A stretch of 44,212 nt of DNA from positions 1-44,212 of the IMG/VR virus record IMGVR_UViG_3300035698_008040; one strand, given 5' to 3'. The translations under genes and the position numbers were made by a program. The DNA comes from a virus. Positions 2,991-40,689 of the stretch are shown piece by piece. Each line of letters opens with the position of its first letter. The stretch's first letter is position 1. The notes beneath the pieces are model-generated. The model had not been told where the DNA came from and made no database searches. It was given only the letters and a program-made list of their open reading frames with translations.

Positions 2991-3275
2991 ATGAGTAAGC
3001 GATTTCCTGTAGTGGTTGACAAGAAAGCATTTGTCAAGAGCTCCAAACACACCTACGTTGAAAGTGAAATACCTAATACAATTATTGTAAGTTATGGAGA
3101 TGTGTTAAAGATTCGTCGTGAAAAGAACTTCACACGTTTAGGAAAGGTTAAAGAAATCAATAATGGTATGGTCGTAACAGACAGATATAGAACTCTAGAC
3201 CTTAACAAAGTAATTTGTGTCGGTGAAAGACATTATTGCGGTGGAAACTCTTGGTTACTTGAACATAAGAAATAA
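2991..3275 (+). CDS. hypothetical protein
   Basis: 94 residues, basic, beta-rich (NTIIVSYGDVLKIRREKN and GMVVTDRYRTLDL), compatible with a small barrel. No family recognised. AGAGG precedes the ATG. It contains GAGCTCCA at 3038-3045, there read in the Ser-Ser-Lys frame rather than the Glu-Leu frame of other copies. Confidence 0.55.
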   Translation: MSKRFPVVVDKKAFVKSSKHTYVESEIPNTIIVSYGDVLKIRREKNFTRLGKVKEINNGMVVTDRYRTLDLNKVICVGERHYCGGNSWLLEHKK

Positions 3276-3280
3276 GTTTA

Positions 3281-3321
3281 TGGAAATTGCTATAGACAAC
3301 CTGTTCAAGTAGCTGTATATT
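3281..3321 (+). promoter_or_regulatory. promoter, TTGAAC-family (variant)
   Basis: TGGAAA, 6 bp, TAGACA (3293-3298), 17 bp, TATATT (3316-3321). It lies in an 81-base gap before the gene at 3357. Confidence 0.5.
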
Positions 3322-3356
3322 TACCTTATAATAACCACAAAACAAAGGGCAAGACA

Positions 3357-3683
3357 ATGGATTTAATGAAGACATTTGGCAGGTTTAATGTGCGAGTATT
3401 ACAGCAAGGTGATACTTATGGTTTAAGAGATTGTTTGACACATGACAAACCTGCTCCAACCGTTGAATTTTATGACACAAAACACCAGAAAGCAGGTGAA
3501 TGGGCTAGAGGTCAGTTTGTTAGCCGATACTGCTTGTCAACGATTTTAGAAAGACCTGCTAACGGCAGATTCTGCCGTCTGTCTTTAGTAGGCTATGAAC
3601 CTGCGTGGACTGTGAATGCTTATCAAATGAAAAGAATTGACACATGGCTTAGAAGCTTAGATTTGGAGGTTACAAATGACTGA
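3357..3683 (+). CDS. conserved hypothetical protein (plasmid/phage type)
   Basis: 108 residues. The order GDTYGLRDCL, then VEFYD, then GQFVSRYCLSTIL, then PAWTV and a terminal RIDTWL resembles a conserved hypothetical protein I associate with plasmids and integrative elements, often near DUF2958 genes. I cannot name the family or give a function. It is the first gene after the promoter at 3281-3321; its end overlaps the next gene by 8 bases. Confidence 0.55.
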   Translation: MDLMKTFGRFNVRVLQQGDTYGLRDCLTHDKPAPTVEFYDTKHQKAGEWARGQFVSRYCLSTILERPANGRFCRLSLVGYEPAWTVNAYQMKRIDTWLRSLDLEVTND

Positions 3684-3939
3684 GCAATTACCGAGCCCAA
3701 TGCGGGTATTAAGAAGTTTTCTGATATTAAAGTACGGCGAACCTGTTTGGATTAATTTTAAGGACTTGGCTGAAAGGGCAAGCGGTAACACAGTTGAATA
3801 CTATGCCGAAACAATTGTACCTGAACATTATATTACTTGTATTATACCTGAATGTAAAAGACAAACAACGAAAGCGTGTTTTATAGCAATTAACGAGAAA
3901 TGGAAAACACATTGGAAAAACTACAACGAGGACAGGTAA
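3676..3939 (+). CDS. member of the LREW/NYG paralog family (divergent)
   Basis: 87 residues. RVLRSFLILKYGEPVWINFKD aligns with the N-terminal part of the genes at 20099 (YLREWIRKNYGTEAWENFK) and 22990 (ILREWFLANYDEEVWEKFK). The C-terminal half keeps the pattern of a hydrophobic strand followed by a KW pair (AINEKWKTHW). GGAGG precedes the start inside the previous gene. Function unknown; three copies in one phage suggest a useful binding module. Confidence 0.6.
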   Translation: MTEQLPSPMRVLRSFLILKYGEPVWINFKDLAERASGNTVEYYAETIVPEHYITCIIPECKRQTTKACFIAINEKWKTHWKNYNEDR

Positions 3940-3940
3940 A

Positions 3941-4093
3941 ATGAAGATGGTGAAAATTGATGGTAAGATGTGGGATGTACATAAGCCCTTTTTTATAAAA
4001 GCGAACGGTAAAGAACTCCAAGCTGGTAGTTATAATGCGGCTGGTGAAATGGCTGAAAAATATACTAATCCACCAAAAGTCTACCAAAAATAG
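3941..4093 (+). CDS. small basic protein
   Basis: 50 residues beginning MKMVKIDGKMWDV, no domain recognised. The start is 1 base after the previous stop and GGACAGG precedes it. The uninterrupted frame at operon spacing is the only support. Confidence 0.45.
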   Translation: MKMVKIDGKMWDVHKPFFIKANGKELQAGSYNAAGEMAEKYTNPPKVYQK

Positions 4094-4102
4094 GTGAATA
4101 AA

Positions 4103-4441
4103 ATGGAAACAATACACGGCATTGAAAAAATAACTAAAAAAGAATTACAGGAACTACATAAAGCTAAGAAAATAAATAGGTTATTTACTGTATGGGATGA
4201 GCGATTGGAAAAGGTAGTCGAACACGTTGCGAAATTTGATGTGTCTGGATTTTCCGGTGTTGAAGTTAATTATTGTGATATGTCAAATAAGACCAATGAA
4301 ATTGTTTGCATGGCATTTAAGCACATGCAGAATGGGAAAACACTTTACTTTTTGTTAACTGTATATGATAACAAGAAAAATGAATTACCTAGTGATAACA
4401 ACATTACAGAAAACATTGTAGTATATATACTAAAGGAATAG
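4103..4441 (+). CDS. hypothetical protein
   Basis: 112 residues from the ATG at 4103, chosen because AGGTG lies 6 bases upstream; the same frame also has a GTG at 4094, directly after the previous stop. Basic helical N-terminus (ITKKELQELHKAKKINR), then a beta-rich part (MAFKHMQNGKTLYFLLTVYD) like a small antiparallel sheet. Not recognised. Confidence 0.55.
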   Translation: METIHGIEKITKKELQELHKAKKINRLFTVWDERLEKVVEHVAKFDVSGFSGVEVNYCDMSNKTNEIVCMAFKHMQNGKTLYFLLTVYDNKKNELPSDNNITENIVVYILKE

Positions 4442-4444
4442 AAT

Positions 4445-4759
4445 ATGACCAATGCTGAAAAGATTCTACGTTTAACTTTTGACCCAGAACCAATGAGTCT
4501 GTTTGGAATAGGTACGGAAGAATTGACTGGTGCAATGGTTTTCTGTTCAAACATAAGAAAACATTTTAATAAACACATTGATTCATTTAATGGACTAACA
4601 TTTTTTAATTCAATAACCGGTACTATGCAAATAGAAAAATTGTTAAACATGAAGACTACTTATTTCATGAGAAGATTTGATAATCCATTAGAAAGACTTG
4701 GTGCTGAAAGGATGCATAAACATATAAAAGTGAAATTTAATAAAATAACAAAGGAATAA
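4445..4759 (+). CDS. hypothetical protein
   Basis: 104 residues, basic C-terminus, helical, no Cys motif and no membrane segment. AAGGAATAG precedes the ATG, 3 bases after the previous stop, so it belongs to the same operon. No relative recognised. Confidence 0.55.
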   Translation: MTNAEKILRLTFDPEPMSLFGIGTEELTGAMVFCSNIRKHFNKHIDSFNGLTFFNSITGTMQIEKLLNMKTTYFMRRFDNPLERLGAERMHKHIKVKFNKITKE

Positions 4760-4763
4760 ACTT

Positions 4764-5348
4764 ATGTTAGAAGAAATAGCAAAGGCAATACATGGATTTA
4801 ATGAACATAATAGCCAAAGACCTAATGAAATTTTAATGACTGAAAAAACATTTGACGAATTGATTGCTGGCGAGGACAAGAGACAACAAGAAGACTACGA
4901 AAGAGCCAAAAGAAACTCACCGTTTCCAGAGCTCCATAAGGCTCCTGAATTATTAAGCCAAAAAATAAACGCAAAAGGTGGAACTTGTACAGTGTATGGT
5001 CTGAAAATAATTATAGTTGAAGAACAAGAAGACAAGTGTGTAATCCGCTATAGGAAGCCAGTTGTAATAACAGACGAAATTAGACAGTTGTCAAAGCGAT
5101 ATAAAAATATAAGCAAATTCAAAGTCGGAGACATTGTTCAATGTATTAATGTTTCCAGAAGTGCTGGCGGTAAAGTTGGAGTTATCAGTCGAGTTAGTGG
5201 AGAACCTTATGGTGAAGAAGAGCAAGACGAAGACGTTGATGAAACTGAAGAACTTGAATTTTACAATATAGATGATTATGAAATTGACTTTGGAAATGGT
5301 AGCACAGAAGCATGGTTTAAAGATGAAGAGCTTGAATTACTAAAATAG
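4764..5348 (+). CDS. hypothetical protein with SH3-like C-terminal domain
   Basis: 194 residues. The N-terminal 45 residues are helical and charged. Residues 70-110 look like a small beta domain (GGTCTVYGLKIIIVEE). From about residue 118 the pattern KFKVGDIVQCINVSRSAGGK matches an SH3/KOW-like barrel opening, interrupted by an acidic insert (EEEQDEDVDETEE). GAGCTCCA lies at 4929-4936. Function unknown. Confidence 0.55.
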   Translation: MLEEIAKAIHGFNEHNSQRPNEILMTEKTFDELIAGEDKRQQEDYERAKRNSPFPELHKAPELLSQKINAKGGTCTVYGLKIIIVEEQEDKCVIRYRKPVVITDEIRQLSKRYKNISKFKVGDIVQCINVSRSAGGKVGVISRVSGEPYGEEEQDEDVDETEELEFYNIDDYEIDFGNGSTEAWFKDEELELLK

Positions 5349-5358
5349 GAAAGTTAAT

Positions 5359-5775
5359 TTGAAATGTTTTAAATGTAAAACTCAAGATACCTACCGCACA
5401 CTTTTCAAAGGTGTGATAATTGATAAATGTCCGGAATGTGATGGTGTTTTTCTGGACATAAATGAGTTTGATAAAATAAAACTCAATAAGCCTCTTGATA
5501 TGGAAGATGTTTGGTTTGAAGAATACGCCGAAGCTTTAAAAGAACGACGACAAAAAGAATTGAGAAGTGCTTATAATTTCTGCCCGAAATGTAATGGTGC
5601 GATGTTACCCTATGTTGTGAATAAAATAATGCTTGATGTTTGTCATGATTGCGGTGGTACATACTACGACAAGGGTGAGTTAGAAAAACATCTTATGCTC
5701 ATGGAACCGAAAGTGTTTTTAGTAGTAATAAAAGGTTTCTTTAACTTTCTACACAAGGCAAAAAATAGTGAATAA
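5359..5775 (+). CDS. double TFIIB-type zinc-ribbon protein
   Basis: 138 residues with two similar modules. The first has CFKCK, then IDKCPECDGVFLDINEFDKI (about 21-40). The second has CPKCNGAMLPY, then LDVCHDCGGTYYDKGELEKH (about 93-112). This is the zf-TFIIB arrangement: CxxC, a beta hairpin, then CxxC[DG]GxxxDxxEL. Such proteins are thought to bind zinc; their partner is unknown. The start codon is TTG, with AGGAAAG before it. The end overlaps the HAD gene by 8 bases. Confidence 0.7.
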   Translation: MKCFKCKTQDTYRTLFKGVIIDKCPECDGVFLDINEFDKIKLNKPLDMEDVWFEEYAEALKERRQKELRSAYNFCPKCNGAMLPYVVNKIMLDVCHDCGGTYYDKGELEKHLMLMEPKVFLVVIKGFFNFLHKAKNSE

Positions 5776-6127
5776 AATTTTAGCATTTGATTTTGACGGT
5801 ACTATGGTAGAAGACGACTTTCCAAACATAGGTAAGTGGATGCCTGAAGCACTTGAAACAATACACGACTTAAAAAAAGCAGGATATATCTTTATACTGT
5901 GGACAAATAGAACTGTACACTACCTTGACGAAGCAGTTGAACATTGTAAACTACACGGTATTGAATTTGATGCAGTTAATGACCATTATTCCGGATTGGG
6001 AGAAATGTTTCCTGAAATATTTAAACTTGGCAAACCTAGTCGCAAAATATGGTTTGATTACGTTTTTGAGGATAAAGACCCTAGAGGTTTTTGTGGCTGG
6101 CAAAAGGTTAGGGAAATACTACTATAA
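5768..6127 (+). CDS. HAD-superfamily phosphatase
   Basis: 119 residues, start GTG overlapping the previous gene. HAD motif I is FDFDGT (about 7-12, catalytic Asp pair), motif II is WTNR (about 45-48), and motif III/IV candidates are GKPSRK and FEDKDPR near the C-terminus. The length fits a minimal HAD phosphatase without a large cap, so a small phosphorylated substrate (nucleotide, sugar or nucleic-acid end) is likely. Similar small HADs occur in phage nucleotide or DNA-end metabolism; the substrate cannot be told from sequence. Confidence 0.75.
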   Translation: MNKILAFDFDGTMVEDDFPNIGKWMPEALETIHDLKKAGYIFILWTNRTVHYLDEAVEHCKLHGIEFDAVNDHYSGLGEMFPEIFKLGKPSRKIWFDYVFEDKDPRGFCGWQKVREILL

Positions 6128-6134
6128 AAGTTTG

Positions 6135-6175
6135 TTGAACGCAAGCTTTACAATACACTCACACACCTGTATGTT
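6135..6175 (+). promoter_or_regulatory. promoter, TTGAAC-family
   Basis: TTGAAC, GCAAGC, TTTACA (6147-6152), 17 bp, TATGTT (6170-6175). A clear member of the family; drives the gene at 6211. Confidence 0.7.
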
Positions 6176-6210
6176 ACCTTATAAATAAATTATTAACAAA
6201 TGGTAACAAC

Positions 6211-6543
6211 ATGAAATACGAATACGTTAGCATTGAAGACAATAAGTTAGCGAAACTTATTGAAGACAAAATTAAAGGTTCTGGATTTGACTACGAATTT
6301 GAATGGACAACCAAAGGCGATATCTTAAGACTTAAGACAGGCTATCACGTTATAAACGATAACGGAACGTATGTTGGTCGAACACCTGTTGCGGTTTGGT
6401 TTGACGTGAATAAACCCGAAGACTTTGTACTACGAATTAACAACAATCCTTTTAGATGCTGTTATGGTTTAAAAGAATATGCTGAAGACACGGTGTACAA
6501 TGCGATTTTACAATGGCAGGCACTACCAGAAAACAACCAGTAA
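6211..6543 (+). CDS. hypothetical protein
   Basis: 110 residues, soluble alpha/beta. Strand-like segments FEWTTKGDILRLKTGYHVI and PVAVWFDVN, one CC pair near residue 72. Only a weak ribosome binding site is seen (GGTAAC). It forms a single-gene unit between two promoters (6135 and 6551). Not recognised. Confidence 0.55.
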   Translation: MKYEYVSIEDNKLAKLIEDKIKGSGFDYEFEWTTKGDILRLKTGYHVINDNGTYVGRTPVAVWFDVNKPEDFVLRINNNPFRCCYGLKEYAEDTVYNAILQWQALPENNQ

Positions 6544-6550
6544 ATGTTTG

Positions 6551-6591
6551 TTGAAGACAGGCTTGACACTACACTCATTTTGTACTATATT
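6551..6591 (+). promoter_or_regulatory. strong promoter, TTGAAC-family
   Basis: TTGAAG, ACAGGC, TTGACA (6563-6568, consensus), 17 bp, TATATT (6586-6591). One of the strongest promoters in the window, followed by an approximately 85-base leader to the gene at 6682. Confidence 0.75.
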
Positions 6592-6681
6592 ATTAACAGC
6601 AACAAATAAAAAGGTAATAGCAATTACCAGAGTTAGCGACACGAGGTTGCTAATTGAATAACAAGTAACAAGGAGGCAGAA

Positions 6682-7287
6682 ATGTCTAAAAAAAACAAGG
6701 GCAAGAAAAGCGTAGTTGTCGGAGCAAAACAGGAAGCAGTAGCGAAAACTGGAACAGTGAAAGCTGACCCAAAAATCCTGCTGGCAATCCACAATTCCAG
6801 TGCTTACAAAAAAGCACCGAAAGACAAACAGTCGGAGCTCCAAGCAAAGCTGTTGGAAAATGTCGCAAAGGTGAAATGTCCTGTTTATGACGTTACCACT
6901 ATGAAGAAGAACAAGCAAGTCTTCGCCAGCGTTCTCGGTCTGATTAGCCACACACGAAAAGAAAGTGTCGTGGGAAACAAAAATTATCAGATTATGGCTT
7001 CGTTCGGTATGTACTACGGAAAAGATGGTACGTTCTGTACTGAATTTTTTGGCAAACACACGATGTACTTGCCTTACGTTAAGGAAAATGTCGCAAGGCT
7101 TTCGGGTTGGGTGTGGAAGTCAATTGCTAAAGCCAAAGCTGAAAACTGGAAAGACATTATCGCGAAATACGCTAAAGTGAACAAAGTGTCGCAAGTCGAA
7201 GTCGTGAATGGTCTGCGTAAATACCTTGCGACATGCAAGCAGAAGCAAGCTACGATTGTTGTAGCTACCCTGCAAGAAGTCGCATAG
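6682..7287 (+). CDS. Lys/Ala-rich protein, highly expressed type, paralog of the gene at 15112
   Basis: 201 residues with a Lys/Ala/Val-rich low-complexity N-terminus (about 1-30), then a helical body. Its second half aligns with the product of 15112-15801: ASFGMYYGKDG versus ASFGVYFGTSG, then a shared pattern ending AKYAKVNKVSQ versus NTYAKASGQK. It has a strong promoter (6551), AAGGAGG, richer codons (CTG, GTC, GTT) than its neighbours, and its own terminator (7309). This is how an abundant early or structural protein would look. The basic tail suggests nucleic-acid binding; no family recognised. Confidence 0.7.
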   Translation: MSKKNKGKKSVVVGAKQEAVAKTGTVKADPKILLAIHNSSAYKKAPKDKQSELQAKLLENVAKVKCPVYDVTTMKKNKQVFASVLGLISHTRKESVVGNKNYQIMASFGMYYGKDGTFCTEFFGKHTMYLPYVKENVARLSGWVWKSIAKAKAENWKDIIAKYAKVNKVSQVEVVNGLRKYLATCKQKQATIVVATLQEVA

Positions 7288-7308
7288 TTTTTAACGGTGC
7301 AAAACATA

Positions 7309-7333
7309 GGGCAGGGTAAAACCTGCCCTTTTG
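7309..7333 (+). terminator. intrinsic terminator
   Basis: GGGCAGG and CCTGCCC form a 7-bp GC stem around a 6-base loop, followed by TTTTG. Directly downstream of the Lys/Ala-rich protein gene. Confidence 0.8.
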
Positions 7334-7372
7334 TGCGCTTAAGAGCGTTTTAATGTAACACAAGGTATAGCC

Positions 7373-7534
7373 ATGAAAAAACCGACCGACGAGCAAGAAG
7401 CTGACATGTTGGAAATAATTGAAAATTCCAAGAATCAAGAAGAAGCAAAAACAAACCTAGTCAAAAAATACGGTAGAGATGTTGAAGCCACTGCAAATGT
7501 ACAGATAGCATTTATGGAAATGCTACACAGATAA
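7373..7534 (+). CDS. small helical acidic protein
   Basis: 53 residues, strongly charged and helical (EQEADMLEIIENSKNQEEAK, then a second helix VEATANVQIAFMEML). AAGGTATAG precedes the ATG. No obvious promoter lies between the terminator at 7309-7333 and this gene, so it may be reached by read-through. The next gene starts 8 bases after its stop. Confidence 0.5.
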   Translation: MKKPTDEQEADMLEIIENSKNQEEAKTNLVKKYGRDVEATANVQIAFMEMLHR

Positions 7535-7542
7535 GGGGAAGC

Positions 7543-8175
7543 ATGAAAAAGGAAAAATATAACATTGGTGGAAATCGTTACCGCTTTGATAATATAAATA
7601 CAATTTTGAAAGGTTGGGTACTCCTGTATTCTAATGAAGATAACAGTATGTACGGAGCGTGGGCTAATCCAACGACACGTGAAACAATGACGTTTACTGA
7701 GGGTGATGTCTGCCATAAAACAAAAATGTCAAAAAGACAGTTTAAAGAAGATATCCAATCATGGGCTAAGTTTCACCGTAAGAATAAAAGTGCCTGTTAT
7801 GTGAATTGTTATGCAAATAAGGTAGCACAGAAGAAGTTTGTTGCTATGGATTTAGGACACTTAATAAAGAAAAGTTACTTTGACATAAGAGATAAGAAGT
7901 CTTTGAAAACTTCTGAATACATTGTAATAATAAACAAAAAGAAATTTGCCAAGCATACCAATATGGATATCGAAGACGTGGAAATCGACCACTTAATGAA
8001 AATAGGGGAAACAATTAAAGTAATGGGTAAGAACAAATTTTGCAAATATGGTCAGATTGTAGAAATGCGTTCTAACGGTGAAGCAAGTACAAGTACAGGA
8101 AATAAAACCGATTTGTCCTACCTGTCAATAGTTGGAAAGGAAAATGATTGTTGGCTGTTAGATGACATGTATTAA
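7543..8175 (+). CDS. hypothetical protein
   Basis: 210 residues. Beta-rich N-terminal part (about 1-50) with aromatic residues, then a basic middle (QKKFVAMDLGHLIKKSYFDI) and a C-terminal region with the MKIGETIKVMGKNKFCKYGQIVE pattern of a KOW-like turn. AAGGGGAAG precedes the ATG. No family recognised. Confidence 0.6.
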   Translation: MKKEKYNIGGNRYRFDNINTILKGWVLLYSNEDNSMYGAWANPTTRETMTFTEGDVCHKTKMSKRQFKEDIQSWAKFHRKNKSACYVNCYANKVAQKKFVAMDLGHLIKKSYFDIRDKKSLKTSEYIVIINKKKFAKHTNMDIEDVEIDHLMKIGETIKVMGKNKFCKYGQIVEMRSNGEASTSTGNKTDLSYLSIVGKENDCWLLDDMY

Positions 8176-8197
8176 AAACCAGTAAAGGAGACAAACA

Positions 8198-8743
8198 ATG
8201 AAAAACATGTTAGTTTTGATTATGTTGTGCTTTGTGTTTTTATGCAGAGCGGAAGAAAAGGTCGATGTTATAAATGAATTGTTAAGCATGAAAAAGGAAA
8301 TATCTATACTGAAATACAAAGTCCATCGACTTGAAACTGAAAAGCTTAAAATTGAAAAGCTTAAAGAAGTTGAAGAAAATAGTCTGAAAGTGGTAACAGT
8401 TGAGAGTCTAAAGTATAAAGCAGATGTCAAAAGACTCAATAAATTGATTAAGTTTGCAGACAATAAAGTAAAACACTATGAGTCGAAAGTCAGAAACGCA
8501 AAGTATATGATTGTAACCTTTGATCAATCAGACAGAAAGGGCTGGCGATATCGTAGTTCTGCAAAGGCAAGTCCGCTTAGAAATATGAAAGACCTGCCTA
8601 GAAAATGGAGTAAGCGAAAAATACAACTTGTTTATATATCAAAAAATGAAAAGAAAATGAAAGTTAAAAAAGAATATATGGAAATTGTAGCGGAAACAAA
8701 ACAAAATAAAAGGGATTTAGAAAGTCAACTGCGAGCATTGTAA
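8198..8743 (+). CDS. exported coiled-coil protein
   Basis: 181 residues. An N-terminal signal peptide is clear: MKNM, a hydrophobic core LVLIMLCFVFLC, then a likely cleavage point near CRAEE (about 17-20). The rest is a long, very basic coiled coil (residues about 20-95 and 140-181) around a short segment with GWRY. Export from an early-region gene suggests action in the cell envelope, for example superinfection exclusion or membrane remodelling, but that is inference. AAGGAGA precedes the ATG. The next promoter begins 6 bases after its stop. Confidence 0.65.
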   Translation: MKNMLVLIMLCFVFLCRAEEKVDVINELLSMKKEISILKYKVHRLETEKLKIEKLKEVEENSLKVVTVESLKYKADVKRLNKLIKFADNKVKHYESKVRNAKYMIVTFDQSDRKGWRYRSSAKASPLRNMKDLPRKWSKRKIQLVYISKNEKKMKVKKEYMEIVAETKQNKRDLESQLRAL

Positions 8744-21886: not shown

Positions 21887-22480
21887 GTGAATCCGGCGCA
21901 AAAATTTGACAAAGCTGTAACAATAAGTAAGGGATTGGTGGTGACAGACATCAGTAAATTAAGGGTTGTTTCAGAACCACTAAAAACAAGGCATGGAGTA
22001 AAGGCTGTAGTTGAAAAAATCAAAGAAGCTATGAAGCACACTTGGGTTGATGGTGTTGGTTTAACTGCTATCCAGATTGGTATTCCAAAAAGAATAGCTT
22101 ACCTGAAATTTGATGATGGTCAAGAAGTTACATTAATTAATCCTGTCATTACAAAGTTCAGTGGTGACCTGCTACTTGAAAAAGAGGGTTGTTTGTCGAT
22201 TCCAGATGCTTGGACTCCTGTTGTTAGAAATTCCGAAATAACTGTTATAGTTGATGGCTTGAATGGAAAAGAAAGGGTCTTTACAAACTTTAAAGCCCGA
22301 GCAATACAACACGAAATTGATTTAATGGATGGAATTTTAAACATTGATAAAAAAGCAAAACTTATCAAGAAAAGGCATACAAACACTACTCCAGGCGAAG
22401 ACAGGTCTAACCGATACAAGAAACGTAGAGATAAAGCTAAAGCCCAGAAAAAATCACGTAAGAAAAACAGGAAGAAATAA
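21887..22480 (+). CDS. def: peptide deformylase-like protein with altered metal site
   Basis: 197 residues, GTG start with AAGGAG before it. All three deformylase motifs are in order: GVGLTAIQ (56-63), EGCLS (100-104, Cys102 a metal ligand) and QHEIDLMDG (141-149). In active enzymes motif III is HExxH, the two His binding the metal and Glu being catalytic. Here His142 and Glu143 are kept but the second His is Leu146. A Lys/Arg-rich tail (about 160-197) replaces the usual C-terminal helix. Phage deformylases normally trim formyl groups from nascent proteins; this copy may be inactive, use another ligand, or only bind ribosomes. Confidence 0.8.
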   Translation: MNPAQKFDKAVTISKGLVVTDISKLRVVSEPLKTRHGVKAVVEKIKEAMKHTWVDGVGLTAIQIGIPKRIAYLKFDDGQEVTLINPVITKFSGDLLLEKEGCLSIPDAWTPVVRNSEITVIVDGLNGKERVFTNFKARAIQHEIDLMDGILNIDKKAKLIKKRHTNTTPGEDRSNRYKKRRDKAKAQKKSRKKNRKK

Positions 22481-26401: not shown

Positions 26402-26425
26402 AAGTCAAAGCCAATGGAGGTTATT

Positions 26426-26866
26426 ATGACTGAACAAATTGTAGTAAAGTATGTAGGTAGTAATCCACTTGTGCAAAAGCACGAGGGAGATGCAGGTATG
26501 GACTTAAGGTCTGTAAAGCGAATAGTGCTTACCCCAATGGAACGAATTGTTGTTCCGACCAATTTGTATGTTGAAATTCCTATTGGTTACGAGGGTCAAG
26601 TAAGACCTCGTAGTGGTATGTCAATCAAACATGGTGTTACTGTCATCAATGCTCCTGGAACTATTGATGCTGGCTACAGAGGTGAAGTTGGCGTTGCGCT
26701 CATTAACTTAAACTGTAATGATTTTGTTATTGAAATAGGTGACAGGATTGCACAGCTTGTTATCTGTCCTGTCGCTAACGTGTTTCTTGTCAAAGCTGAA
26801 ACACGTGAAGAACTATCCGATACAACACGTGGTGATGGTGGTTTTGGTAGCACAGGTCACAGTTAA
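26426..26866 (+). CDS. dut: dUTP diphosphatase
   Basis: 146 residues from the ATG at 26426 (GGAGG at 26416-26420); the frame also has an ATG at 26414. It hydrolyses dUTP to dUMP and pyrophosphate. All five trimeric dUTPase motifs are present: DAGMDL, PRSGM, the GTIDAGYRG region, RIAQLVI and the C-terminal [10 protein letters not shown]. The length is usual for the family. It keeps dUTP out of DNA and feeds thymidylate, of interest beside a putative thymine-modification gene at 29376. Terminator follows. Confidence 0.95.
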
Positions 26867-26977: not shown

Positions 26978-27157
26978 TTAAAAAATATTAAAGCAGTCAG
27001 AACACATATAATATACATATTCACCGCTATCTTTTACAAGGCGTACATTTTCCAACTTAATAGAATGACACATAGGACATTTCTTACTGAACAGAGAATG
27101 ACATGTAGGACATTTCCTATTAAATAAATCTTTTAATATTTTAAATATTTTATTCAT
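26978..27157 (-). CDS. small zinc-ribbon protein downstream of ligase
   Basis: 59 residues on the minus strand: a helical basic start (MNKIFKILKDLFNRK), CPTC (16-19), CPMC (26-29), then CSDC (about 53-56). Two or three CxxC pairs indicate one or two zinc sites. Its start overlaps the end of the ligase gene by 8 bases, so it belongs to the ligase operon. No separate ribosome binding site is obvious, suggesting coupled translation. Confidence 0.6.
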   Translation of the reverse strand: MNKIFKILKDLFNRKCPTCHSLFSKKCPMCHSIKLENVRLVKDSGEYVYYMCSDCFNIF

Positions 27158-29012
27158 TTATCATTGCCATAAACTGTTCTTCTGTTAATACTGTTGTACC
27201 GTTACTTTTTGCTTTAGATATTTTGGCTGGTACAGCACCATCACCAATAACTAAAAAGCTAAGACTTTTGTTTATACTGGTGAAGTTACCGCCAGCACCG
27301 ACAACAAGCTTCTCAATTTCCTTACGAGGAATGCTTACCTTGCCTGTACATGCAAAAGACTTTCCAGATAAGTTTCCAAAGATTTCTTCTACATTTTTTA
27401 CTGAAACTTCTCTAAGTAATCCACTCAAATCCGTATTACTTAAATATTTAATAATCCCATCTGCGGTTATGTGTCCTATTCCATCCATTGCTAATAATTC
27501 TTCACCGCCAGTAATATGTAAAGCAAGGAAATTGTCAATAGTTTTATATTTATTAGCAAGAAGCTTTGAAGTTGATTCACCTGTTTCTTTTATACCAAGT
27601 CCACAGATAAATCTCCATAGTTCAACATCAACCATTTGGCTTAATGTCTTATAATAGTTTGCTACTTTTAAATCACCCCAACCATCTAAAGAAAGGAGTT
27701 GTTCTCTAGTAACTTCAAAAATATCTTCAATGCGTTTTATGTATCCATATTCAACAAGACTGTATATAGTAGCTTCACCAATACCCTTGACATCAGTGGA
27801 TTGTATAAAATGTACAATAGAATTAGCCAGCCTAGAAAAACAGTTAAGATTAGTACAGAATAAATCATGGTTTACTTTTTGTAACGTAGACTTACAATCC
27901 GGACAAAAGGACGGTTCTGTGATGTGAATACCGTCTGGAGCCTTTTCATGTACTGCTTCTATTTTAGGGATGATATCGCCACGCTTAGAAACTGTAACAA
28001 TATCATTAATATGTAAGTCAAGTTCTCTGATTTTACTAAAGTTAGCTAAAGAGGGTCTGCTTACTTGGCTACCGTCAATAAAAACAGGCTCTAGCACAGC
28101 TATCGGAGCTATTTGTCCTGTCCTGCCGACTTGCAGGGCAACCCCTAACAACATAGTGTTCTTGGTCTCTGGAGGAAACTTGTATGCTATTTGTCCTTTA
28201 CAGTTAAGACCGACAATACCACAGCCCTTTCTCGATTTATTACTGTTGATGGAAACAACTAAGCCATCAGTTCTGTAATTAAGCCTATTTCTTTTACTTG
28301 TTAATTTTCTAATAAGCTTTTTGGTGAAACCGCCTGTATGTTGTTTAACTGTTTCAAGTCCAGCTAATTTAAGAACTTTGCGTTCCGTTGTTAACCACTT
28401 ATGCAAGTCTTCACCATTTATAGACAGTAATCTGTAAGCTTTAAAAGAAATTTTCTTATCTTTGCAGTCCATTGGATTTTTAGATTGTAATATTCCAGAT
28501 ACAGCGTTGCGTTCATTTTTATAATTAAGCTTTGACAAATGTTCTTCAAAAAAGTCTTTAGGAATATAAGCTTCGCCACGCACTTCACCACTGATTCTTT
28601 TGTTAAGTACTTTTGGAATGTCGTCACATTGCATAATACAATCAGTTATGTCTTGTCCAGTATAACCATCACCACGAGTTACTGCTTTAAATAAAATACC
28701 GTGTCTGTATTTTAATCCAATAGCACAACCATCAATTTTCCAAGACCATACTATATCAAATGTAGGAAAAAACCATTTAAGATATTCTTTAAAGGTTGTT
28801 GCTTTATTAATAGAACCCATAGGTGTATCGTGTTCAACCTTGACACCGTAAGACGGTAAACAACCGACCACAAGTAATGTTTTTGAATCCGGCTTGCGTA
28901 GACGTAATTTTAAAACAAGCTTATCAAATTTGATGTCGGAAATTTCTGGGTTCTCGTTAAAGTATAAATTATTGTGGTACAATATAAGTTTTTCTAAGTC
29001 TTTAGTGTTCAT
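27150..29012 (-). CDS. ligA: NAD-dependent DNA ligase (LigA)
   Basis: 620 residues, nearly full length (bacterial LigA about 670). It seals nicks using NAD+. Domain order: NMN-binding Ia (HNNLYFNENPEISDIKFDKL, about 13-32), adenylation domain with WKIDG (91-95, Lys92 the AMP-accepting residue), OB fold (GRTGQIAPIA region), Cys4 zinc finger (CPDC and CTNLNC), tandem helix-hairpin-helix (GIGEATIYSL and GIGHITADGI type), and a C-terminal BRCT domain (LSGKSFACTGKVSIPRKEIE). All parts look intact, so it should be active in phage replication or repair. GGAGG lies about 11 bases before the ATG. Confidence 0.97.
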   Translation of the reverse strand: MNTKDLEKLILYHNNLYFNENPEISDIKFDKLVLKLRLRKPDSKTLLVVGCLPSYGVKVEHDTPMGSINKATTFKEYLKWFFPTFDIVWSWKIDGCAIGLKYRHGILFKAVTRGDGYTGQDITDCIMQCDDIPKVLNKRISGEVRGEAYIPKDFFEEHLSKLNYKNERNAVSGILQSKNPMDCKDKKISFKAYRLLSINGEDLHKWLTTERKVLKLAGLETVKQHTGGFTKKLIRKLTSKRNRLNYRTDGLVVSINSNKSRKGCGIVGLNCKGQIAYKFPPETKNTMLLGVALQVGRTGQIAPIAVLEPVFIDGSQVSRPSLANFSKIRELDLHINDIVTVSKRGDIIPKIEAVHEKAPDGIHITEPSFCPDCKSTLQKVNHDLFCTNLNCFSRLANSIVHFIQSTDVKGIGEATIYSLVEYGYIKRIEDIFEVTREQLLSLDGWGDLKVANYYKTLSQMVDVELWRFICGLGIKETGESTSKLLANKYKTIDNFLALHITGGEELLAMDGIGHITADGIIKYLSNTDLSGLLREVSVKNVEEIFGNLSGKSFACTGKVSIPRKEIEKLVVGAGGNFTSINKSLSFLVIGDGAVPAKISKAKSNGTTVLTEEQFMAMINE

Positions 29013-29355: not shown

Positions 29356-29396
29356 ACTATACACCACTAAGGGCATTAAGACAAGTCAAGCTTCAA
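29356..29396 (-). promoter_or_regulatory. promoter, TTGAAC-family, minus strand
   Basis: Minus-strand reading: TTGAAG (29391-29396), 6 bp, TTGTCT (29379-29384), 17 bp, TATAGT (29356-29361). It overlaps the 3' end of the upstream gene and points to the ligase operon. Confidence 0.6.
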
Positions 29397-30584
29397 CTTA
29401 ATTTTAGTAAGGGCTTGTTTAAGCTCTTCTGTATTAGTTGCTGTTGGAAAATTAGACTTTTTACTTGAAAGGATTTTGGAACGCTTGTAAAACTTTTCAT
29501 AAACCTTTTTATTTACTTCAATCAAAGTATCACCAGTTTTTTTGTCAATAACACAATTGTGATTTTGTACATCTTTATCATAAAGCATTCTCACTTTACC
29601 GTGTCCTCTTGATTGTAAGAAGTATTTAGAATATTCACAAAGACTGTGTTCAATACTTCTTAGACCAAGACTGTTTTTGACTGGTTCGTGTTTATTGTAA
29701 AACTGAAACTTTAATCCGTATTTCTTGAACTTTTTGTGTTGAGTTTTTAATAACTTAACAATTTTATCATACTGTTCTTTAGATGGAGTACTTGGGTACA
29801 TAATACGAATACCCTCTTTAGCTCCGGGACCGATGTTGGCAAAGTCGTTGGTAGTAAACGGTATGAGTCCACTATAACACAAGTCACAATAAATTTCATA
29901 AGCAGTAAAGTCACCAACACTTCTAGGTTCTTTAAGTAGTTTGTGAAATTTTTGACCAAACTCACGACCAACTTCTTCATTATGTTCTGTTGTGTCGTAT
30001 TCTGCAAACAGTTTCATAATGGCTTTAGTGGAATCGTTTACCTTATTACATAAATCAAGTACGGAAATAAGATACCCCTCTGCTTTAGTTAGTCCTTTTG
30101 GAGTAGGACAAGTTAAGTGAGCGGAAGTTGTTACAGGTTTAGTTTCATTGCGCTTATAAATGAACTTGCAAAACTTTTTAAAATTGAATTTGCCAAAGGT
30201 CATGGGTAAACCAGTTTCTTCAAATGTTTCAATTCTATTAGCCAAGCGGTATAAAGTAATCTTAAATATAAGGTCACGCATAAGTTTAAAATTATTTCTC
30301 TGATTGCCACTATTATGAAAATCAATGGTTGGAGTAATAATGTTTTGATAGCACCATATACTTCCACGGTCTAACTGGCGATACACATTGGTATATTTAG
30401 TAACCTGTAAAACTGGATTTTCAGTCCACTGGTCACGAGGTAATTTATGAATGAATCTATTTACCCATATATTGTGTCTGTCAGTGATAAACTTAAAAAA
30501 GTCTTCACAGTTTTCATCGCTAAACTTAATTGACTCAGATGGATATAGAGTGTCTCTATAATCTCTCATTGGTTTTCTTGGCAT
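29376..30584 (-). CDS. 5-hmdU DNA kinase helical-domain / thymine-hypermodification family protein
   Basis: 402 residues. TENPVLQVTKYTNVYRQLDR (54-73) followed by GSIWCYQNII matches, from memory, the signature of the helical domain called HMUDK_hel or alpha-glutamyl/putrescinyl-thymine pyrophosphorylase, a DNA-glycosylase-derived fold found in phages with hypermodified thymine. A later NDFANIGPGAKEGIRI (about 263) fits its helix-hairpin-helix (GPGA). No P-loop kinase is attached, so it is the stand-alone form. Expected role: acting on modified thymine bases in phage DNA. It ends near the promoter of the ligase operon; dUTPase is nearby. Confidence 0.6.
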   Translation of the reverse strand: MPRKPMRDYRDTLYPSESIKFSDENCEDFFKFITDRHNIWVNRFIHKLPRDQWTENPVLQVTKYTNVYRQLDRGSIWCYQNIITPTIDFHNSGNQRNNFKLMRDLIFKITLYRLANRIETFEETGLPMTFGKFNFKKFCKFIYKRNETKPVTTSAHLTCPTPKGLTKAEGYLISVLDLCNKVNDSTKAIMKLFAEYDTTEHNEEVGREFGQKFHKLLKEPRSVGDFTAYEIYCDLCYSGLIPFTTNDFANIGPGAKEGIRIMYPSTPSKEQYDKIVKLLKTQHKKFKKYGLKFQFYNKHEPVKNSLGLRSIEHSLCEYSKYFLQSRGHGKVRMLYDKDVQNHNCVIDKKTGDTLIEVNKKVYEKFYKRSKILSSKKSNFPTATNTEELKQALTKIKLKLDLS

Positions 30585-32232: not shown

Positions 32233-32445
32233 ATGACTAGGTTACAAAGATGTCTTAAAGGATACTACTATGCGGATTGTAAGAATGATACCGCTAGGAA
32301 AAAATTGTTTCAAGACAGGATAGATAAATACCCTAGAAAAAAAATAAAGTCAGAATCTTATAAACTTTCAGAGAACACGAAAAGCCTTTTGTTTGAATGT
32401 TGGTTAAAATCACTTTCCTTTGTGGGAGTATTAAATGGCGAATAA
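32233..32445 (+). CDS. small basic protein between terminase genes
   Basis: 70 residues, very basic in the middle (DRIDKYPRKKIKSESYKL). It starts 2 bases after the small terminase gene and overlaps the large terminase gene by 11 bases. Not recognised; a packaging accessory role is possible from position only. Confidence 0.55.
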   Translation: MTRLQRCLKGYYYADCKNDTARKKLFQDRIDKYPRKKIKSESYKLSENTKSLLFECWLKSLSFVGVLNGE

Positions 32446-35400
32446 AAGAAAGGTCGTTGAAAAAATAAATCCGTTTGCAGAACTTGCAGACAATCTGGGT
32501 GGGAGTGCTGGTTTTGGTGCATATCTTTTAGAACCGATAGTTGGTGTACAGGAGTTTATAGAAAGCCCAAAGTTTTTAAACCAGAAATGGAATGGAAAAC
32601 GTGGCTGTAGACCAGAAATGTTGAAGATTGCCATAAAGGTTTCAAAAGATAGCGTTAGAGAAGTAATGTTACTGCTTGGTAAAGGATGTTTGGCTGGTAG
32701 TTCACAAATTGCTTTAGCTAATGGTTCCGTTTGTAGAATTGATAAGTTATATAAAAAGTTTGGCAATAAACCGATAAGGGTCATAAACCATGATGTAAAT
32801 ACAAATAAGTCTTTAGTATCAAACGCAGTAGTTAAATACTCAGGATTAAAAAAGACTTATAAAATAAGATTACGTAACGGCTATGAGTTTGAAGCGACCA
32901 TGAATCATAAAATGCCTACTTTTTGGGGAAATAGAAAAATAAAAGATTTAAGTGTTGGTGACACATTGTTAATATCTAAAAATCAAAGCAACATAGCAAA
33001 GGATTATAATAAATGTGAATCGTTGTCAAATGAGGAAGCTAGGTTTTTAGGTTATATGGTAGGTGATGGATATACTGGTAGACTTGGCTTAAAAAGATTT
33101 TGCTTTACAAATGGTGATAAAGAAGTTTTGAAAGATTTTTTACGTTGTTTAAAAACAATTGACCCAAATGGAAATCCACATTTGGATGTGAGAAGTACAA
33201 AAACAATGGTTTGGTTTGGTAATAGTAGATTTCCAAATGCAACTAATTTAATTTTATTGTGCGGATTGCATGGTAAAAAATCAAAAACAAAGCATATTCC
33301 AATATTGGTAAGAAAATCAAGTCAAGAAGTTATAGGTAATTTTATTGTTGGATATTGGATGTCTGATGGAGAATGCAATATTCAACATGGTAAAAAGCGT
33401 GATGAAATATATTATGATATTTCAAGTATAAGTAAGCGTTTGATTTTTGGACTACGTGATTTGTTGTTAAAGCTTGGTGTAGATTCTAAGATAAGACGTT
33501 GGTGTCAAGATGTGAATTCTGGAACAAAAATTTATAAAGATTATAAAGGATATTCGTTATCATTTTCTGGTGATACAAATGTGGAAAACTTTGGGGAATT
33601 TGTTAAATTAATATCTTACAAAGGTGAAAATCAAAAATACAGTCTATCTTTAAAATCAGAATTAACAACTGCCCTGTGTAGATTTTTTCCAGACAAGCTT
33701 TCTGCTGAGATTAGAAGTGAGTTAGATAAAAAGGTTTCAGCTACAGAAAGAAATCGACTTACTGGTAGAGGTAAAAAAATAAATATTGATAGATATGATT
33801 GGTTTAAAAATTTACTTGATAATGAAAAGGATATTTTAAATGGCGATGTCGGTTATTCTGAAATTGTTTCAATAGAACCAGTAAAAGAAAAGGATGTGTA
33901 TGATATTACCATATTGTGCGGTGAAAATGATAATTTAAGAAATTATGTGGCAGATGGAATAATCGTTGGTAATTCAGGTAAAGACTATATATCGGCAGTA
34001 TTACACTTGTACGGTATTTATAAAGCCCTTTGTTATAGTAGCCCACAAGCTTACTATGGATTAGCTCCAGGAAGTCCTATATACTTTGTTAATACCGCTC
34101 GTAATGACACACAGGCTAAAAAGGTATTCTTCACACAGTTTAAAGGTATGCTTTTAAATTGTGTATGGTTTGAGGGCAAGTATGAAGAACCTAGTTCCAA
34201 TGAAGTTCGCTTCGATAAAGGAGTTGTTGCTTTAAGTGTGAACAGTCAAGCTTTCGGGTGGTTAGGGTTTAATACGATACAATGGGTAGGTGATGAGTTA
34301 GCCTTTTTCTTAGAAAACGATACTGACGAGGGTTCTGACTCAAGAGCAGAAGAATGTTGGCAAGCTGCTTACGGAAGTTGTCAGACACGTTTTCCACAAC
34401 ATTACAAGATGATTGGAATTACTACACCACGTTTTGATGATGACTTTGTAATGCGTAAATGTAGGGAATTAAAAAACCGTAAAGATGGTTTCTTCCTGCA
34501 GAAACCAACATGGGAAATACATCCGGGATTAACCAAGAAAGATTTTGAAAATGAATTTATAAGAGATTACCGTAGAACAATGCGTGACTTTGGAGCTAAA
34601 CCAATGGGTTTAATGGAGGGATTCTTTGGTGACCCAGATTTTATTGAAAATAATGTTAGAGCTGAATGTAAAATGTGTCCTGTATATAAAAAACGTAAAG
34701 ATACACAAGATATGTACGAGTGTGAAGAATATGAAGAATGTACACAAAACCCATATAGAGGCAATGGAAAGTTTTCAAGCTGGTTTCATCCAGACCCAGA
34801 AGCAGAATATCATTTACATTTTGACTTGTCAAAAAGTAAAGACTTTTTAGGAATGACCCTCGGACATTCTGACGATGTCGTTTTAGTGGAAAGGTCTTTA
34901 GGTGAAGTAATGGCAATGGCTGAAATAGACAAAAAGGGTATGAAAATAAGTGAAGAAGATATGATGCGAGAAAAGCCATTAATTATTATTGATATGTTTG
35001 GTTTTATAAATCCGAGAAGCAAGAGAGACGACAATTTAACAAGAAATAGTGAACTGTATTATGATGGCATATTTAAACACATAGTAGTATACTTAAAACT
35101 AAATCTTGGGTTTAACATTGTTATGATAACATTTGACTCCTATCAATCTCATTATTTTAAACAAAACTGTGAAGATTTAGGTATAGAAGTTACTCTAATC
35201 TCTACTGATAGGACAGATGAAGTTCCCACACAGGCAAAGGTAGCTTTTAATGAAAACAGGATAAATTATCCTTATTGTAAGAAGCTGTGCAAAGAGGGGA
35301 AAGAACTCATGATTAAAAATGGTAAAAAGGTTGACCACCCGAAGAAAGGTTGTTTTGTTGCTGAACAAGAAATATATCTACCAATGTTTGACGACACTAT

Positions 35401-35866
35401 GAATTTCGAAGCACTAACGGATAAATTTTTAGGTGAAAGTTTTCATGTGATATCTTACGACAAAAAGCGAAATATTTTTGTCGTAGCGGAAGCATATCAT
35501 TCGCGAGTGACAAAAACAGTTGAAGAATATGTTGAAATACGATTATTGAATGGTGCTTATATAAGGTGTACACTTGACCACCCAATAATGATAGGAACAG
35601 GCAAGTACATGGAAGCTGTTCATTTATTACCAACTGATACATTAAAAGGTTATGAAAATAAGGTTGTTGAAAGTGTTAATCGTGTAAAGTGTTTAAAAAG
35701 AAAGATGTATGACATAACAGTTCCAGTTTATAATAATTTCATGTTAGGTAATGGCGTGATAGTTCACAATTCAAAAGATATTTGGGATTCAGCAAGTTGT
35801 GTTATAAAGACGCTAGAAGATGAAACAACTAACGGAAGTGGATTTGTTGATTTAACCACTGAATAG
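32435..35866 (+). CDS. terL: terminase large subunit precursor with two inteins
   Basis: 1143 residues as translated; removing two inteins (85-513 and 973-1112) leaves 574, the usual TerL size. It pumps DNA into procapsids (ATPase) and cuts it (RNase-H-like nuclease). After splicing the Walker A reads GKGSGKD, spanning the first junction; Walker B is IQWVGDELAFF. Nuclease acidic residues: HFDLSKSKD, TFDSYQSHYF and SKDIWDSAS, the last right after the second junction. A Cys-containing insert (CKMCPVYKKRKD) lies before the nuclease. Both inteins must splice for activity. Confidence 0.93.
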   Translation: MANKRKVVEKINPFAELADNLGGSAGFGAYLLEPIVGVQEFIESPKFLNQKWNGKRGCRPEMLKIAIKVSKDSVREVMLLLGKGCLAGSSQIALANGSVCRIDKLYKKFGNKPIRVINHDVNTNKSLVSNAVVKYSGLKKTYKIRLRNGYEFEATMNHKMPTFWGNRKIKDLSVGDTLLISKNQSNIAKDYNKCESLSNEEARFLGYMVGDGYTGRLGLKRFCFTNGDKEVLKDFLRCLKTIDPNGNPHLDVRSTKTMVWFGNSRFPNATNLILLCGLHGKKSKTKHIPILVRKSSQEVIGNFIVGYWMSDGECNIQHGKKRDEIYYDISSISKRLIFGLRDLLLKLGVDSKIRRWCQDVNSGTKIYKDYKGYSLSFSGDTNVENFGEFVKLISYKGENQKYSLSLKSELTTALCRFFPDKLSAEIRSELDKKVSATERNRLTGRGKKINIDRYDWFKNLLDNEKDILNGDVGYSEIVSIEPVKEKDVYDITILCGENDNLRNYVADGIIVGNSGKDYISAVLHLYGIYKALCYSSPQAYYGLAPGSPIYFVNTARNDTQAKKVFFTQFKGMLLNCVWFEGKYEEPSSNEVRFDKGVVALSVNSQAFGWLGFNTIQWVGDELAFFLENDTDEGSDSRAEECWQAAYGSCQTRFPQHYKMIGITTPRFDDDFVMRKCRELKNRKDGFFLQKPTWEIHPGLTKKDFENEFIRDYRRTMRDFGAKPMGLMEGFFGDPDFIENNVRAECKMCPVYKKRKDTQDMYECEEYEECTQNPYRGNGKFSSWFHPDPEAEYHLHFDLSKSKDFLGMTLGHSDDVVLVERSLGEVMAMAEIDKKGMKISEEDMMREKPLIIIDMFGFINPRSKRDDNLTRNSELYYDGIFKHIVVYLKLNLGFNIVMITFDSYQSHYFKQNCEDLGIEVTLISTDRTDEVPTQAKVAFNENRINYPYCKKLCKEGKELMIKNGKKVDHPKKGCFVAEQEIYLPMFDDTMNFEALTDKFLGESFHVISYDKKRNIFVVAEAYHSRVTKTVEEYVEIRLLNGAYIRCTLDHPIMIGTGKYMEAVHLLPTDTLKGYENKVVESVNRVKCLKRKMYDITVPVYNNFMLGNGVIVHNSKDIWDSASCVIKTLEDETTNGSGFVDLTTE
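32687..33973 (+). other. intein 1 (large, LAGLIDADG-containing) in the Walker A loop
   Basis: 429 residues. Cys1 (CLAGSSQIAL), TxxH as ATMNH (intein 70-74), C-terminal YDITILCGE, then YVADGIIVGN ending in Asn, followed by Ser. The penultimate residue is Gly instead of His. Two LAGLIDADG-like helices: FLGYMVGDGY (120-129) and FIVGYWMSDGE (219-229), so it carries a homing endonuclease. It sits between GKG and SGKD of the P-loop. Confidence 0.92.
35351..35770 (+). other. intein 2 (mini-intein) at the nuclease active site
   Basis: 140 residues without endonuclease. Cys1 (CFVAEQEIYL), TxxH as CTLDHP, C-terminal YDITVPVYNNF then MLGNGVIVHN, followed by Ser of SKDIWDS. Exteins join as HPKKG-SKDIWD, directly at the third metal-binding Asp of the nuclease. 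Confidence 0.92.
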
Positions 35867-39753: not shown

Positions 39754-40689
39754 ATGAAGATACTTATAATTGGTGGTGCTGGTTTTATTGGTGGTGTCCT
39801 AACATCTCAACTGATGACACAAAGGCATGAATGCGACGTGGTGGATGTCGGTTTGTTTGGGATAGATGAAGATTATAAAGATTTTAATGTTGTCAAAGAA
39901 AATTACACACAACATAATCTTGATATGTATGATTGTGTTGTGTGGGCTTGTGACTGTGATACTAAAAAGTTCTTTGATTCTGCTGGACAAGTATTTGAAT
40001 ATGCTAAAAGTTATTCGCAATTAAACCTTGATACTTTTGCGTTAGTTGCAGAAAATTCAAAAAGAATGATTAGTCTTATGACAGATGAAAATTTTATTGA
40101 AGACGGTAATTATAAAAACTTTTTGATGAATAAGAAAAAGGTGGCTGGTAAACTTGGTGTAGAATTAGTGTATGTTAATGAAGTGTTTGGGACGTCTCCT
40201 AGAATGCGTTTTGACACTTTGGTTAATGGTATGGTGTTAAATGCCATACTTTACAGTATGATGTACGTTGAGAGTCCTTTAAATGTAGTGCCAGCTATAG
40301 CCATAAATGCCCTTGTGGATGTTTTAGTGTTAAAAATAGAATCTGGAGACGACGACGATATAAAACCGTACTCTTTTATTTTAAATGAAGCTGGTTACGC
40401 TTCATTAGTAAAAGCAAAGTTTTCTAAGAAAATACCAGTATTTAAAAATATACAGATATTGTTTTCAGAAGAGGAACAAAATAGTACAAGATTTAATGAT
40501 AAAATGCGCTACGCAATGGAAAATTATACCGGAACAGGTTCAGAAGAAGTTGATTTTTTGAACTTTGTACAAAACATAACTGCAAGCTTAAACGCTGGAC
40601 TTATGGTAATGAAAGATAGTTATAATAACGAAAAGATTTATACAGAATTTGTCGAGTATGTAAACACATATAAATTAATGTCAAGGTGA
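39754..40689 (+). CDS. NAD-dependent epimerase/dehydratase-like protein, catalytic Tyr replaced
   Basis: 311 residues of the extended SDR type. Nucleotide-binding GGAGFIGG (7-14) at a Rossmann start; SPRMRFDTLVNGMVLNAIL (148-166) is the substrate-side motif of sugar epimerases. The catalytic YxxxK is not seen; at its place is FLMNK (123-127), Phe instead of Tyr with Lys kept. So it probably binds NAD and perhaps a nucleotide sugar but may not oxidise it normally. It lies between capsid and tail-like genes; a glycosylation or structural role is possible. Confidence 0.75.
   Translation: MKILIIGGAGFIGGVLTSQLMTQRHECDVVDVGLFGIDEDYKDFNVVKENYTQHNLDMYDCVVWACDCDTKKFFDSAGQVFEYAKSYSQLNLDTFALVAENSKRMISLMTDENFIEDGNYKNFLMNKKKVAGKLGVELVYVNEVFGTSPRMRFDTLVNGMVLNAILYSMMYVESPLNVVPAIAINALVDVLVLKIESGDDDDIKPYSFILNEAGYASLVKAKFSKKIPVFKNIQILFSEEEQNSTRFNDKMRYAMENYTGTGSEEVDFLNFVQNITASLNAGLMVMKDSYNNEKIYTEFVEYVNTYKLMSR

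Follow-up and report, generated by a model that had tools for sequence, protein, structure and literature searches.

What are the two long segments that interrupt a phage terminase large subunit (TerL), and why do they lie in both of its catalytic centres? The window analyzed here is the 44,212-nt virus record IMGVR_UViG_3300035698_008040 of IMG/VR, over its full length. A preliminary description had read the segments as two inteins and placed them at 32687-35770; these coordinates proved to be exact, since intein 1 starts and intein 2 ends at precisely these bases (Table 1).

The terminase gene and its inserted segments

Annotated phage terminases matched the extein down to 5e-41 in tblastn, covering residues ~514 to 973 or beyond of the open reading frame (ORF), and portal, prohead protease and capsid genes lie downstream. 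Exact parsing of the ORF gave exteins of 84+459+31 aa, i.e. a spliced TerL of 574 aa, as the preliminary description had calculated. In this spliced form, Walker A, the DE of Walker B and the nuclease acids are all present.

Table 1. Coordinates of the TerL gene and of its parts in the window (a caret marks an intein insertion point)
Feature	Position	Strand	Remarks
TerL precursor ORF	32435..35866	+	1143 aa; two inteins inside
N-extein	32435..32686	+	84 aa; ends ...MLLLGKG, first Walker A half
Intein 1	32687..33973	+	429 aa; class 1; Walker A site GKG^SGKD; LAGLIDADG
Intein 1, block B TxxH	32897..32908	+	TMNH
Intein 1, first LAGLIDADG motif	33047..33073	+	LGYMVGDGY; catalytic-type Asp kept
Intein 1, second LAGLIDADG motif	33347..33373	+	VGYWMSDGE; catalytic-type Asp kept
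Intein 1, block G	33953..33973	+	DGIIVGN; Gly where the penultimate His is usual
Middle extein	33974..35350	+	459 aa; SGKD half of Walker A, Walker B VGDE, coupling motif ITTPR, nuclease acids HFDLS and TFDSYQ
Empty site, second nuclease acid	35132..35149	+	FDSYQ^S; 379-aa LAGLIDADG intein there in L017
Intein 2	35351..35770	+	140-aa mini-intein; class 1; nuclease site HPKKG^SKDIWD
Intein 2, block B TxxH	35570..35581	+	TLDH; nuclease-site intein alignment
C-extein	35771..35866	+	31 aa, SKDIWD... with third nuclease acid, plus stop

Intein 1 (aa 85-513) matched the Pfam domains Intein_splicing (E=1.4e-14) and LAGLIDADG_3 (E=1.2e-12), and the profile of its family matched solved DnaB inteins in the PDB (3e-21). 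It has the residues of a class 1 intein, namely Cys1, TxxH, a C-terminal Asn (Asn429) and Ser+1, with Gly in place of the penultimate His, which is usual rather than universal in class 1 and was not counted as defining. Both of its LAGLIDADG motifs have an acidic residue. Intein 1 is thus predicted to be a complete mobile element, consisting of a HINT splicing domain and a double-motif LAGLIDADG endonuclease. Intein 2 (aa 973-1112) has Cys1, TxxH, a HisAsn end (GVIVHN) and Ser+1. It matched Intein_splicing (E=4.6e-10) and exceeded the cut-offs of both NCBIfam splicing-region models, and the Pfam and NCBIfam profiles found no endonuclease domain in it, as befits a class 1 mini-intein. The profile of its family matched solved DnaE and RadA inteins; no sequence similar to intein 2 was found in plasmids. 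These domain matches bear out the earlier reading of two inteins of different types. AlphaFold2, run on two-sequence alignments only, gave mean pLDDT values of 28 and 32 for the two inteins, and the HINT fold predicted for both rests on sequence profiles.

We also aligned the window TerL with TerLs from Streptomyces, Rhodococcus, Microbacterium, Gordonia, Bacillus, Thermus and cyanobacterial phages. In these proteins, GKGSGKD (or its equivalent) and KxDHPxxGSKDxxDA are uninterrupted (Bacillus phage EZ-2018a, for example, has a contiguous WGKGSGKDF), and the window TerL came into register with them only after removal of both segments. The junctions in Walker A and before SKDIWD are thereby confirmed as first described. 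The DNA pattern of the empty nuclease site matched at least 120 IMG/VR stretches, which were picked for that empty site and are uninformative on its frequency; all those listed match the TerL profile, and the full-length TerLs among them are mostly ~600 aa long with an unbroken Walker A. Given the E-values of the intein domains and the exact empty sites in relatives, chance can be excluded.

Other genes in the window include one for a protein with a 5-hmdU DNA kinase helical domain (29376-30584, - strand; Pfam E=4.7e-49), which hints at hypermodified DNA and also gave a weak small-terminase PHROG match. There are further genes for a phage NAD-dependent DNA ligase (27150-29012, - strand), a peptide deformylase (21887-22480, + strand) and a dUTPase (26414-26866, + strand). 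A head-cluster protein (39754-40689, + strand) gave a weak match to NAD-dependent epimerase (E=0.0065, below the cut-off), and a protein of similar length occupies the same place in the related contig L017 (8735-9673). No RNA family or tRNA was found in the window.

Inteins in related terminases

Neither the middle extein nor intein 1 gave close relatives when used as a query; relatives were reached through searches with the portal protein and with the nuclease-site end, and through DNA patterns. The closest, reached via the portal protein search, is IMGVR_UViG_3300035698_007730 (L017, also L198), whose TerL of 1524 aa contains three inteins (L017:299-4873). It is like the window in that two inteins occupy identical residues, one at GKG^SGKD that also ends in GN and one at HPKRG^SKDIWD. 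It is unlike the window in having a third, a LAGLIDADG intein of 379 aa at FDQFQ^SHYF, the second nuclease acid, where the window has an empty FDSYQSHYF. Another contig, the fragment L018, belongs to a near-identical phage and shares its nuclease-site intein end with L017.

Between the window and L017, identity is 76-77% in the extein, 62% in intein 1 and 58% in intein 2. Given that intein 2 (58%) is less alike than the host protein (76%), it has not been exchanged recently between these two phages. The dN/dS values were 0.27 (CI 0.19-0.36) for intein 1, about equal in its splicing and endonuclease parts, 0.28 (CI 0.15-0.47) for intein 2 and 0.11 (CI 0.07-0.15) for the extein, all of them rough because dS is ~1-1.5 and near saturation. 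Both inteins and the extein are thus under purifying selection.

The N-junction pattern of the nuclease-site intein, HPxxG^C(F/L), matched 76 IMG/VR stretches, nearly all in TerL. After the junctions had been refined, near-copies removed, and the window and the genome contig L230 added, we obtained 53 non-redundant nuclease-site inteins, nearly all in environmental viral contigs. All 53 have Cys1, a T/CxxH block B, an HN end and a following SerLysAsp; the last belonged to the selection of the set, and the HN end did not. The Pfam splicing domain is present in 52 of them and HNH_3 in 33, and the lengths range from 135 to 419 aa, with 16 inteins of 170 aa or less. On the tree of these inteins, at least eight changes between mini and large forms are required, three of them forced by starred branches, although this tree is weakly resolved and does not settle loss versus gain of the endonuclease. 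In genome contigs, the nuclease-site pattern gave 17 matches, and only those in L230 and L231 lie within TerL. The NCBIfam model RtcB_rel_intein2 was matched by all 53 inteins, so the nearest annotated inteins may be in an RtcB-like protein.

The mean pairwise identity was 46% for the splicing parts of these inteins against 27% for their host TerLs, with a Mantel r of 0.38 (p 0.001). On the basis of these mean identities, the greater likeness of the inteins suggests movement between distant phages, and the Mantel r suggests that inheritance is partly vertical. In L157 and L195, for example, the full inteins are 53% identical, compared with 34% and 24% for two parts of the TerLs.

Inteins were also found at other TerL sites, where junctions were placed by a script maximising the TerL profile score and checked by eye in part. 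The Walker A site GKG^SGKD is occupied, with and without an endonuclease, in L017, L220, L221, L222 and L226; the intein of L221 is a mini-intein of 149 aa that is 39% identical to intein 1 of the window and ends in GN. A Lys^Thr site in the P-loop is occupied in L152, L167, L177, L195 and L216, the Walker B site (LDE^) in L177 and L203, the second nuclease acid site in L151, L174, L190, L196 and L198, and linker sites in L177, L195 and L220. The two sites occupied in the window each have their own intein family, LAGLIDADG or mini at Walker A and HNH or mini at the nuclease site. A candidate pair at 34355-35047 of the window (score 8.4) and other low-score junction pairs were discarded as false, as was the automatically placed Walker A start in L151, which was misplaced. 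L151 and L159 have an Asn-starting insert at the GKG^SGKD point (GKG^NFSPKQK...TNN^SGKD), which may be an intein of a class 3-like or other unusual kind, and the second half of the L220 ORF 1597-5406 contains a second, apparently Ser-starting intein (KYE^SLVADTKI...VVHN^CIPP) at the YE^C linker site.

Apart from the window, about 17 contigs have more than one TerL intein, and, again not counting the window, about 11 contigs combine an intein in an ATPase motif with one at the nuclease site. That the pairing of types at the two centres, which had been considered striking, is special to this phage is therefore not supported. L151, L195 and L198 have three TerL inteins each. In L177, a TerL of at least 1794 aa (3259-8640) contains four, in the P-loop, at Walker B, in the linker and at the nuclease site, and the contig ends inside the fourth. 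In the open-access literature, we found no report of a TerL with more than two inteins.

Homing, regulation or decay

We propose that the two inteins of the window TerL, both of class 1, occupy different homing sites, each of which has been used recurrently. Very probably, these are homing inteins lodged in the most conserved catalytic DNA of the gene, the nuclease-site copy being one without an endonuclease. Inteins would reside in catalytic motifs because no homing targets are better conserved and because only perfect removal is tolerated there. Each would excise itself by an acyl shift at Cys1, transfer to Ser+1, cyclisation of Asn and an acyl shift to a peptide bond, and the product would be the 574-aa TerL. 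Before splicing, the ATPase and the nuclease would both be incomplete; the position of the inserts is consistent with the earlier statement that both centres are broken in the unspliced chain. Intein 2 comes from the nuclease-site family, the larger members of which mostly carry HNH, and would have lost an endonuclease instead of having always lacked one. Splicing, its order and homing activity are what we infer here.

It could also be supposed that the inteins are regulators, with conditional splicing working as a timer or a two-key lock by which TerL would stay inactive up to the late stage of infection, a control proposed by the authors of the Mic1 study (PMC7156551). The interruption of both catalytic centres, the stacking of inteins at additional motifs in related phages and the persistence of endonuclease-free mini-inteins under purifying selection would all agree with such a role. 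However, the need to splice explains this selection equally well, the nuclease-site intein is absent in the close relatives L221, L222 and L226, and many TerLs of the family are intein-free, so that such control is not generally needed. We therefore consider regulation unlikely. Very unlikely, in our estimate, is the wider proposal that inteins in this TerL family use every catalytic motif as a site (Walker A, Walker B, and the second and third nuclease acids) and that stacked mini-inteins are kept as a multi-step maturation lock timing the activation of the motor.

If one or both inteins were splicing-dead, then the gene would be decaying or the phage would use another TerL. This speculation draws on the missing penultimate His of intein 1, whose GN ending had been suspected of slowing its splicing. 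However, the residue before the last Asn in Walker A inteins is Gly in three phages (the window, L017 and L221), Asn or Glu in two others and His in L220, whereas the 53 nuclease-site inteins all have His there. Penultimate Gly and other residues have been found among phage inteins, the penultimate His is dispensable in other inteins, and the RDF intein of a mycobacteriophage splices completely with its native penultimate Gly and more slowly when this Gly is changed to His (PMC5050341). Given its conservation in L017 and L221 and this precedent, we rejected GN as a sign of decay, and slow splicing does not follow from it; in L221, where GN is kept without an endonuclease, its presence would be hard to explain if it abolished splicing. 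In addition, neither a frameshift nor a stop interrupts the ORF, all splicing residues other than the penultimate one are intact, exteins and inteins are under purifying selection, and a protein search found no second TerL in the 44,212-nt record. Loss of splicing is thus highly improbable. Finally, the reading of the segments as ordinary TerL domains, which the preliminary description had named as the outcome that would overturn it, has practically no probability, since we found no point in its support, the intein matches are strong, and intein-free relatives lack both segments and have contiguous GKGSGKD and GSKD.

Comparison with known intein-containing terminases

The two inteins of the window TerL are an instance of known intein biology and are not unique. 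The comparison usefully extends this by a nuclease-site intein family that recurs at one site and by TerLs with stacked inteins. Together, they make available, at defined residues, alleles that are empty, large, mini or stacked, a natural series that would be useful for testing the homing cycle of invasion, endonuclease loss and persistence, and for finding splicing-competent mini-inteins, including those without the penultimate His.

In mycobacteriophages, the inteins TerL1-a to -e and TerL6-f are commonest in the P-loop, and their splicing has been shown (PMC5050341). In contrast to the window, all seven terminase sites are in the ATPase domain and none is in the nuclease domain (PMC5050341), and the P-loop site a lies between Lys and Thr rather than at GKG^SGKD. 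A crAss-like TerL of the Delta group (OBYQ01000140) consists of three in-frame pieces with two inteins (PMC7886860); it can be likened to the window by intein count, and its inteins are described as of the Hint-Hop type, with TAG recoding. We also found a homologous intein before CMDAMRY in the TerL of MW202478 and an intein at GFGK^T in that of Psychrobacillus phage Perkons.

The TerL of Microcystis cyanophage Mic1 (MN013189) has two inteins, in the ATPase and nuclease domains (PMC7156551), so that a published case likewise argues against a special status of the window. As in the window, a large endonuclease intein in the ATPase domain is combined with a mini-intein that closely precedes the last nuclease acid, and this mini-intein is homologous to the nuclease-site family of the window (profile E=1.7e-10). 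However, the Mic1 TerL belongs to another branch, the last two residues of its mini-intein are SN, and the insertion sites are different: LLTG^TPKG is in the ATPase domain and not in Walker A, and DHL^CDALRY is nearer to the Asp.
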